36,366 nucleotides of DNA. Origin: Chthoniobacterales bacterium (GTDB taxonomy: Bacteria; Verrucomicrobiota; Verrucomicrobiia; Chthoniobacterales; JACTMZ01). The notes under the pieces are model-generated. The model ran no database searches and had not been told where the DNA came from. It worked only from the letters and a program-made list of their open reading frames with translations. The position numbers and the translations under genes are program-made. The stretch spans positions 1 through 36,366 of the forward strand of contig VEQL01000027.1 of the NCBI GenBank assembly GCA_018883245.1. Reading direction: 5' to 3'. Position 1 is the stretch's first letter. Each line of letters begins with the position of its first letter. This document shows, piece after piece, positions 53 to 1,081 of this stretch.

Positions 53-379
53 ATGAAACGGAGTCGATTCAGCGAGGAGCAAATTATCGGGATCTTGCGA
101 GAGGTCCAAGGAGGGGGCAACACGCGCGCGGTCTGCGCGGCCCACAACATCAGCGAAGGCACCTACTATGCTTGGAAGCGCAAGTATGGCGGTATGGATG
201 TGAGTGAGGCGCGGCGTTTGCGGGCGTTGGAGGATGAACCGAGCGAAGCGAGATAGCCTGCCGCAGGCAGCCCGAAGGGCGAGGCGAAGCCGAGGCAAAA
301 CGCGCGACTCAAGCGCATCATCGCCGACCTCAGCGTGCAGAACCACATCCTGAAAGAAGTTAACGCAAAAAAATGGTAA
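53..379 (+). pseudogene. IS3 OrfA (HTH, transposase N-terminal part), interrupted by an in-frame stop
   Basis: The ATG at 53 follows AAGGAG at 40-45, a good ribosome site. The protein opens MKRSRFSEEQIIGILRE and continues through an HTH_8-type domain to the conserved KYGGMDVSEARRL and ALEDE. After the GAA codon at 236-238 a 60-nt insert adds Pro-Ser-Glu-Ala-Arg and then TAG at 254-256. Reading resumes in the same frame at AAC (299-301) with NARLKRIIADL and ends KKW-TAA at 377-379, the normal end of this family. Without the insert the protein would be 88 residues. Function of intact homologues: DNA binding at the IS ends and formation of OrfAB by frameshifting. This copy encodes only a 67-residue truncated product unless the TAG is read through. 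Confidence 0.88.
236..302 (+). repeat. 67-bp repeat, copy 1 (60-nt hairpin insert in orfA)
   Basis: Positions 236-302 are identical to 1015-1081 over 67 bases and differ immediately outside. Removing 60 nt restores GAAAACG and the normal OrfA frame, so the insert is 60 nt (20 codons) placed after GAA. It holds GCGAAGC twice (once as GGCGAAGCC), GCCCGAAGGGC, and the palindrome GCCTGCCGCAGGC; most can fold as small hairpins with GAA loops. In the orfA frame it contains a single stop, TAG at 254-256. The exact ends are ambiguous by two bases because of the A run. No target duplication is evident. Confidence 0.9.
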
Positions 380-401
380 GCCCGTCTGCAAAAAGGCGGG
401 C
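367..401 (+). promoter_or_regulatory. Programmed -1 frameshift signal (A7 slippery site plus hairpin)
   Basis: Seven A's at 367-373 are phased as A-AAA-AAA in the orfA frame, and orfB lies in the -1 frame. Six nucleotides downstream, GCCCGTC (380-386) can pair with GGCGGGC (395-401) around an 8-nt loop. This is the arrangement used by IS3 elements to make an OrfAB fusion. An independent orfB ATG overlaps the last A (373-375). The signal is intact although both frames are now broken. Confidence 0.75.
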
Positions 402-1014
402 TGCCCAAAGGAGTGTGGAGAACGGCGCAGGGAGCAAATCGGCGGCTTGCCGTGCGTTGGGTCTGGCCAGATCCGGGCTGTATCGCCAAGCAAAGGCGAG
501 CGTGGAGAGCCGGCGCATCCGCAAGGAGGTGCTGGAACTCAGCGCCAAACATCCTCGCTACGGTTATCGGCGCATCACGGCGCTGTTGCGTCGTGAGGGC
601 TTCGAGGTCAACCCGAAGCGGGTGGCGCGCATCCGGCGAGAGGAAGGCATCAAGGTGAGCAAGAAGCAGCGACGCATGAGGCGCGTGGGAACATCGACCG
701 CGCAGCGGACCCGGGCCGAGAGGCCTCGGCAGGTCTGGAGTTGGGACTTTGTCGAAGACCAGACCGAGAACGGCAGCCGGTTCCGGATTTTGACGATCCT
801 CGACGAGTATACGCGCCAATGTGTGGCGATGCATGCAGCGTGGTCGATCCGGGCTGTGGACGTCATCACCGTCTTGGAAGCAGCTATTGCCCGCTACGGA
901 GCGCCAGAGCATCTGCGCAGCGACAACGGGCCGGAGTTCATTGCCTGCGCAATCCAAGACTGGCTTGGGGAAGCTTCCATCAAGACGATCTACATCACCC
1001 CGGGGAGCCCGTGG

Positions 1015-1081
1015 GAACCGAGCGAAGCGAGATAGCCTGCCGCAGGCAGCCCGAAGGGCGAGGCGAAGCCGAGGCAAAACG
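1015..1081 (+). repeat. 67-bp repeat, copy 2 (60-nt hairpin insert in orfB)
   Basis: This is an exact copy of 236-302, again flanked by GAA on the left and AACG on the right, and again in the phase that gives Pro-Ser-Glu-Ala-Arg-TAG (stop at 1033-1035). It sits directly after the codon for the catalytic glutamate of the DDE triad (PGSPWE followed by NGYIESF). I saw no third copy in the window. Confidence 0.9.

Follow-up and report, generated by a model that had tools for sequence, protein, structure and literature searches.

Two identical inserts in one IS3 element

The stretch analyzed here (the window) is the 36,366-nucleotide (nt) contig VEQL01000027.1 (contig C27) of a Chthoniobacterales bacterium, whose 2.9-Mb genome is assembled in 84 contigs (GCA_018883245.1). 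Its left end lies only 5 nt from the start of an IS3-family insertion sequence (IS) of about 1.35 kb, both genes of which, OrfA and OrfB, carry the same 60-nt insert. These inserts belong to a family of tiny folded mobile sequences, found in and between genes of Verrucomicrobiota, that is apparently undescribed so far. The features of the locus are as follows.

6 to 1359, + strand: IS3-family IS, bearer of both inserts (repeat search; Pfam HTH_Tnp_1 and rve; relatives about 70 to 77% identical)
6 to 30 and 1335 to 1359: terminal inverted repeats of the IS (repeat search)
53 to 379, + strand: OrfA (HTH_Tnp_1), in which the insert makes translation stop at the TAG at 254 to 256 (sequence, Pfam, frame table)
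238 to 297, + strand: element copy 1, 60 nt, within OrfA, flanked by GA (236 to 237) and AAACG (298 to 302) (covariance model R1, E value of 6.4e-18)
238 to 254, + strand: minihairpin 1 of copy 1, with closing pair 238-254, tandem G.A/A.G pairs, and a GNA loop at 245 to 247 (covariation)
254 to 256, + strand: in-frame TAG of copy 1, the sole stop in that frame (sequence, frame table)
256 to 296, + strand: three more minihairpins (CTGCC-GCA-GGCAG, CCC-GAA-GGG, and a variable GGC-GAA-GCC) within a two-pair stem, 256-296 plus 257-295 (covariation)
373 to 1383, + strand: OrfB (rve, DDE type), in which the insert makes translation stop at the TAG at 1033 to 1035 (Pfam, frame table)
1017 to 1076, + strand: element copy 2, 60 nt, identical to copy 1, within OrfB, flanked by GA (1015 to 1016) and AAACG (1077 to 1081) (repeat search, covariance model)
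1033 to 1035, + strand: in-frame TAG of copy 2 (sequence, frame table)

The repeat search recovered the 67 identical bases at 236 to 302 and 1015 to 1081 from which the original prediction, made from the sequence without database searches, had started. As that prediction stated, deletion of 60 nt from each gene gives GAAAACG and the Glu-Asn of both OrfA (LED-EN-ARLK) and OrfB (SPW-EN-G). IS3 relatives from the same order, of about 70 to 77% DNA identity, are uninterrupted at both places. Their empty OrfA site reads GAGGAAAAC/T or GAGGAGAAC, and their empty OrfB site reads GGGAAAACGG (L155 and L156) or GGGAGAACGG (L157 and L159). The OrfB insert falls at what we take, from general knowledge of IS3 transposases, to be the catalytic Glu codon of the DDE triad. 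In both copies the frame table also agrees with the prediction that TAG is the only stop in the GAA frame, giving predicted truncated products of 67 amino acids (OrfA) and 220 amino acids (OrfB). Because OrfA and OrfB each carry a TAG in their copy, this IS copy is probably silenced and dead in cis, with both products truncated. A seven-A run at 367 to 373, ahead of the OrfB part, is likely the -1 frameshift site of the IS. Rfam models found nothing in the window beyond one tRNA.

Two identical 60-mers cannot have arisen by chance. The heptamer common to both inserts is only moderately surprising; the empty IS holds, on both strands, 9 GAAW, 38 GAA, and 2 GAAAACG sites, and the odds of two random hits both falling on GAAAACG are about 1/36 to 1/703. 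An assembly artifact was considered and is unlikely, the same OrfB site being filled in a different IS3 element of another genome (L014 in G002).

Distribution of the element family

Related sequences occur in 19 of 57 genomes (the window's genome and 56 relatives), the material being draft and metagenome assemblies. A strict pattern run over about 85,000 species genomes matched 10 stretches, all 10 in records named as members of the Verrucomicrobia, including Chthoniobacter flavus, and was present in 17 of 213 genomes of the window's order; judged from the named records, this order would be that of Chthoniobacter. Viral contigs gave no match. The covariance model returned 2 to 33 matches per genome in 24 Verrucomicrobiota genomes chosen because they already had hits, and 8 in the window's own genome. 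There, the two window copies are the only close pair; the next most similar copy is 88% identical over 45 nt, and diverged copies lie on contig C31. This dispersal, together with empty sites and recurrent insertions, upholds the earlier suggestion of a small mobile repeat. It is reasonable to say, as the prediction did, that the exact element belongs to no named family, and no description of it was met in the open-licence literature searched, but its kind, REPs (repetitive extragenic palindromes) or RPEs (Rickettsia palindromic elements) inside genes, is known (PMC3733652, PMC10969869, PMC2229807).

Structure of the element

Across the family, the element is about 57 to 66 nt long, has fixed ends, and forms four minihairpins. 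The consensus of the copies, with carets at the borders, is GA^p3-C-C-GAGC-GNA-GCGA-G-A-p19-AG-N, CTGCC-GNA-GGCAG, CCC-GNA-GGG, a variable hairpin, and N'-C-A^A. Terminal inverted repeats are absent, since the aligned copies start with GARCCGAG and finish with N'CAA, which are not inverted repeats of each other. The closing pair of hairpin 1, formed by the third base (p3) with p19, is A-T in 31, G-C in 29, and T-A in 10 of 74 copies and unpaired in 4; in a smaller copy set it was formed in 43 of 45 copies versus 18.5 expected, and the N-N' pair was formed in 41 of 43 versus 21.8 expected. In alignment A1, 98.9% of the cells are paired and six pairs show double-sided changes, which none of 500 shuffles matched. 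Kinship among the copies inflates these covariation counts, an effect softened by the three pair types found at one position. To match the search pattern, hairpin 1 had to have its G-N-A loop and tandem G.A/A.G pairs, so their constancy is partly built in; p3, p19, N, and N' were free. Energy folding scored the window copy no better than shuffles; the evidence of structure comes from covariation. The string of minihairpins that had been read from the sequence is borne out as a structure by covariation, and its motif GCGAAGC is by itself not enriched in the window (20 found versus 17.6 expected).

DNA minihairpins with GNA triloops and with tandem sheared G.A pairs are known, and a single-stranded DNA intermediate is favored for this reason.

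Two genomes, G013 and G046 (L025, L039, L076 to L080, and L085 to L089), have a second architecture that retains the 5' hairpin, with only the first 20 to 24 nt (GAACCGAGCGAAGCGAGATAGCC) in common; in many of these copies a different stem ending in GGCAA follows.

Insertion site and borders

The insertion site is NA^A in 73 of 74 copies, the two bases on the left being GA in 57 and CA in 11; these target counts, like the phase counts below, describe copies that were similar enough to be found and are often related to each other. Sites other than that of the window are filled, among them GAAATGT, GAAAAGG, GAATATT, and CAATTC, so that the proposed recognition of GAAAACG gives way to a site in which only NA^A is constant. 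Empty sites and fixed ends were both seen, without a consistent GAA/AACG flank.

The borders were set by two sites in HsdM, where homologs have GAA/GAG or CAA/CAG and the filled genes have GAT or CAT. Because the empty HsdM sites differ from the filled ones at the third base, p3, which pairs inside the element, this base is part of the element. Entry is therefore at GA^A, one base off from the position after the GAA codon that was originally assigned. The filled and empty HsdM sites allow a target duplication of at most a single A, and none of 2 bp or more was met with. Relatives of LeuS and CarB were of no use for placing the borders, as their loops differ. Target-guide base pairing of the IS608 type was considered and rejected, since the third base, which covaries, is element sequence rather than target sequence. 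A hairpin as a general target requirement was also rejected; at the top threshold, strong stems surround only 10% of the empty sites versus 1.4% of the controls, and the overall P value is 0.07.

Host genes, reading phase, and recurrence

Copies lie both between and inside genes, and transposases of at least five IS families are hit. On the sense strand, the transposase hosts are IS3 OrfA and OrfB, IS256 (at two different sites), an IS5-type gene, ISL3, IS110, and a DUF772 transposase, of which the IS5-type and one IS110 host match below the Pfam cutoff; antisense copies occur in IS256, IS110, and ISL3. The other sense-strand hosts, essential genes among them, are LeuS, CarB, HsdR, HsdM, ThiC, PBP1C, PSD1, RND, and a sulfatase. 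In LeuS, CarB, HsdR, HsdM, ThiC, PBP1C, and PSD1 the copies are in frame and free of stops. The host-gene copies are mostly 57, 60, 63, or 66 nt long and mostly have CAG or AAG in place of the stop. Because they are mostly multiples of three without stops, the copies in nontransposase genes are probably translated. The transposase copies mostly retain the in-frame TAG and for this reason are probably inactivating; TGG instead is found in one IS256 copy, and with the antisense copy of G010 the open frame is still full length.

The main phase reads GAA-CCG-AGC and onward and adds 19 to 22 codons. GAA (or GAG, GAT, or CAG) is a codon in about 16 of 18 sense copies, while half of the GAA triplets in the genes concerned are in that phase (P of about 7e-4), a tally that is only indicative, its sites having been chosen and counted by hand with homologous sites taken once. 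In HsdM of G091 (L121, 1500 to 2500), several copies of the element or its relatives are present, two of them close together, and the frame stays open.

The same codon has been filled more than once. The IS3 OrfB site is occupied in G000 as well as in G002, whose IS is 75% identical and whose insert is 90% identical, and three IS256 genes of G041, 75 to 76% identical to each other, carry identical inserts at the same codon. As judged from such comparisons, the inserts are young and recurrent rather than ancestral and silently skipped; conversion between copies within one genome is an alternative to separate hits.

Origin and mode of movement

The dispersal, covariation-based folding, target site, and in-frame tolerance of the family are established. 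In our judgment, the two inserts are probably copies of a palindromic mobile element, about 60 nt long and non-autonomous, that belongs to a REP/RPE-like Verrucomicrobiota family and is moved in trans. A single-stranded DNA form would be recognized via its minihairpins and inserted by a trans-acting transposase, perhaps a HUH/Y1 enzyme; in conserved genes, stop-free copies with a length of 3n would survive as translated peptides. Y1 genes are common in the order (41 of 57 genomes), and their link to the element is unproven.

Several observations weigh against this reading. Besides the lack of an energy-folding signal and of a GTAG tag (0 of 74 copies), a copy lies within about 1.5 kb of only 4 of 30 Y1_Tnp loci in five element-rich genomes, one of the four being weak and one lying inside an IS5-type gene. 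Neither the mobilizing enzyme nor an autonomous Y1-encoding relative with the same ends was found among the loci read, no search across all genomes having been aimed at it. The HsdM copy L065 contains one TAG, and the copies in the G002 IS3 and in a Wzt-like gene of the window's genome, an identity not confirmed by Pfam, are not multiples of three. In addition, the repeated use of the same codon goes beyond the specificity expected from NA^A.

One competitor, which the original prediction had also raised, is that the insert is read through or bypassed at translation, as in T4 gene 60 and Magnusiomyces mitochondria, with the IS remaining active. It would fit several transposases in which TAG follows, in the same phase, a short leader, as well as an IS256 pair of G085 with two or three in-frame stops in each gene, which differ by 52 synonymous versus 3 nonsynonymous changes (ratio of 0.017) on both sides of the insert. 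The insert of that pair, however, differs at 1 of 60 sites versus about 11 predicted from the synonymous divergence (P of about 1.6e-4), and the inserts are therefore younger than the divergence of the pair. Moreover, the take-off codon GAA and the landing codon CAA are unmatched, matched codons being the rule for gene 60 (PMC5009743); some copies are antisense; and the host-gene copies mostly lack a stop, which bypassing would not need. With host-gene copies mostly stop-free multiples of three and stop-bearing transposase copies far younger than their hosts, tolerance by readthrough or bypassing is highly improbable.

A canonical GTAG REP, mobilized by an REP-associated tyrosine transposase (RAYT) of these genomes, would fit the frequent Y1 genes and the insertion without target duplication, as in IS200/IS605; the foot of the main structure, AYAG, is near GTAG, and intragenic REPs occur in the verrucomicrobium Opitutus terrae (PMC3733652). 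The corresponding tetranucleotide, however, is ACAG in 30, ATAG in 27, AAAG in 9, and another in 8 of the 74 copies, the element has four hairpins and fixed ends rather than one stem-loop of 20 to 40 bp, and the copies are mostly away from Y1 genes, making this origin rather unlikely. A single insertion from outside, with the second window copy arising by local hopping or conversion from one GAAAACG site to the other, is possible, if still unlikely. It touches the second copy only and is compatible with the mobile-element explanation, and the window copies are identical, with every other copy found in the genome far more distant, and have the heptamer in common; yet a seven-base common flank is very little for recombination, and the three divergent IS256 genes of G041, whose inserts are identical, show that a single donor's recent burst likewise yields identity.

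What the mobile-element reading leaves over is that divergent transposases are hit again and again at the same codon. The element might be a single-stranded DNA hyperparasite of ISs that homes by its minihairpins to one codon of unrelated transposases, shuts them off, and is mobilized by an enzyme with which such repeats have so far not been associated, a scenario that we consider quite improbable.

Y1 neighborhood was rejected as a general rule. Its clearest case, in G041 (contigs C24 and C42), is a composite in which a different palindrome, CCCAGGGT...ACCCTGGG, holds the element in its loop; it is present twice (L050 and L049), once beside a Y1 transposase gene, and seems to have multiplied. 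Separately, leuS of G041, G100, G102, and G098 (L169, L170, L171, and L175) has a long in-frame insert directly past the editing domain that is absent from four other relatives. In G041 this insert matches Y1_Tnp above the Pfam cutoff (26.2 versus 23 bits) with the motif MPNHVH, a RAYT-like domain in an essential gene. In leuS of G100 (L170), another repeat-like peptide, SSNPQSAIRNPHS, occupies the LeuS place that the element fills in G041.

The element offers a compact, covarying, and naturally marked substrate for the question of how intragenic palindromic repeats move, which has been open since RPEs were described in 2000. The HsdM gene with several in-frame copies is a gauge of how much peptide such DNA can add to a conserved enzyme, and the repeated same-codon hits in divergent transposases suggest either that the target preference is sharp or that transposons are held in check by a natural brake.

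Comparison with known systems

Inserts that are likewise short, hairpin bearing, and within genes are bypassed in Magnusiomyces mitochondria and in the T4 gene 60 gap (PMC5009743), whereas the host-gene copies of the window family stay in frame and free of stops. Miniature inverted-repeat transposable elements of DDE transposons differ from the element, which has neither terminal inverted repeats nor a target duplication of 2 bp or more. Non-autonomous IS200/IS605 derivatives (Y1/HUH) resemble it in their fixed short left context, structured ends, and lack of target duplication, but no parental element with its ends was found among the loci read, and guide/cleavage-site pairing was not supported.

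The closest counterparts are the GTAG REPs of Opitutus terrae, which lie inside genes, even twice in one uvrA gene (PMC3733652), and the RPEs, small palindromic selfish DNAs that sit in intergenic regions as well as in frame within conserved protein genes, where they are read as additional peptide (Ogata et al. 2000, via PMC10969869 and PMC2229807). Like the former, the window element is folded, non-autonomous, of the same phylum, and present in intragenic copies, but it has neither the GTAG tag nor a GYAG, GYRG, GTRG, or GTMG form, no single stem-loop, and generally no adjacent RAYT. Like the latter, it is in frame and stop-free in conserved protein genes and also lies between genes. RPEs are about 105 to 150 bp, have long stems, and are known from Rickettsia (PMC2229807, PMC10969869), whereas the window element is a 57- to 66-nt string of minihairpins from Verrucomicrobiota that is frequent in transposases. 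Because the GTAG tag and the size and shape of RPEs are both missing, the family is classed as neither REP nor RPE and is best read as its own variant of the REP/RPE-like intragenic palindromic mobile repeat.
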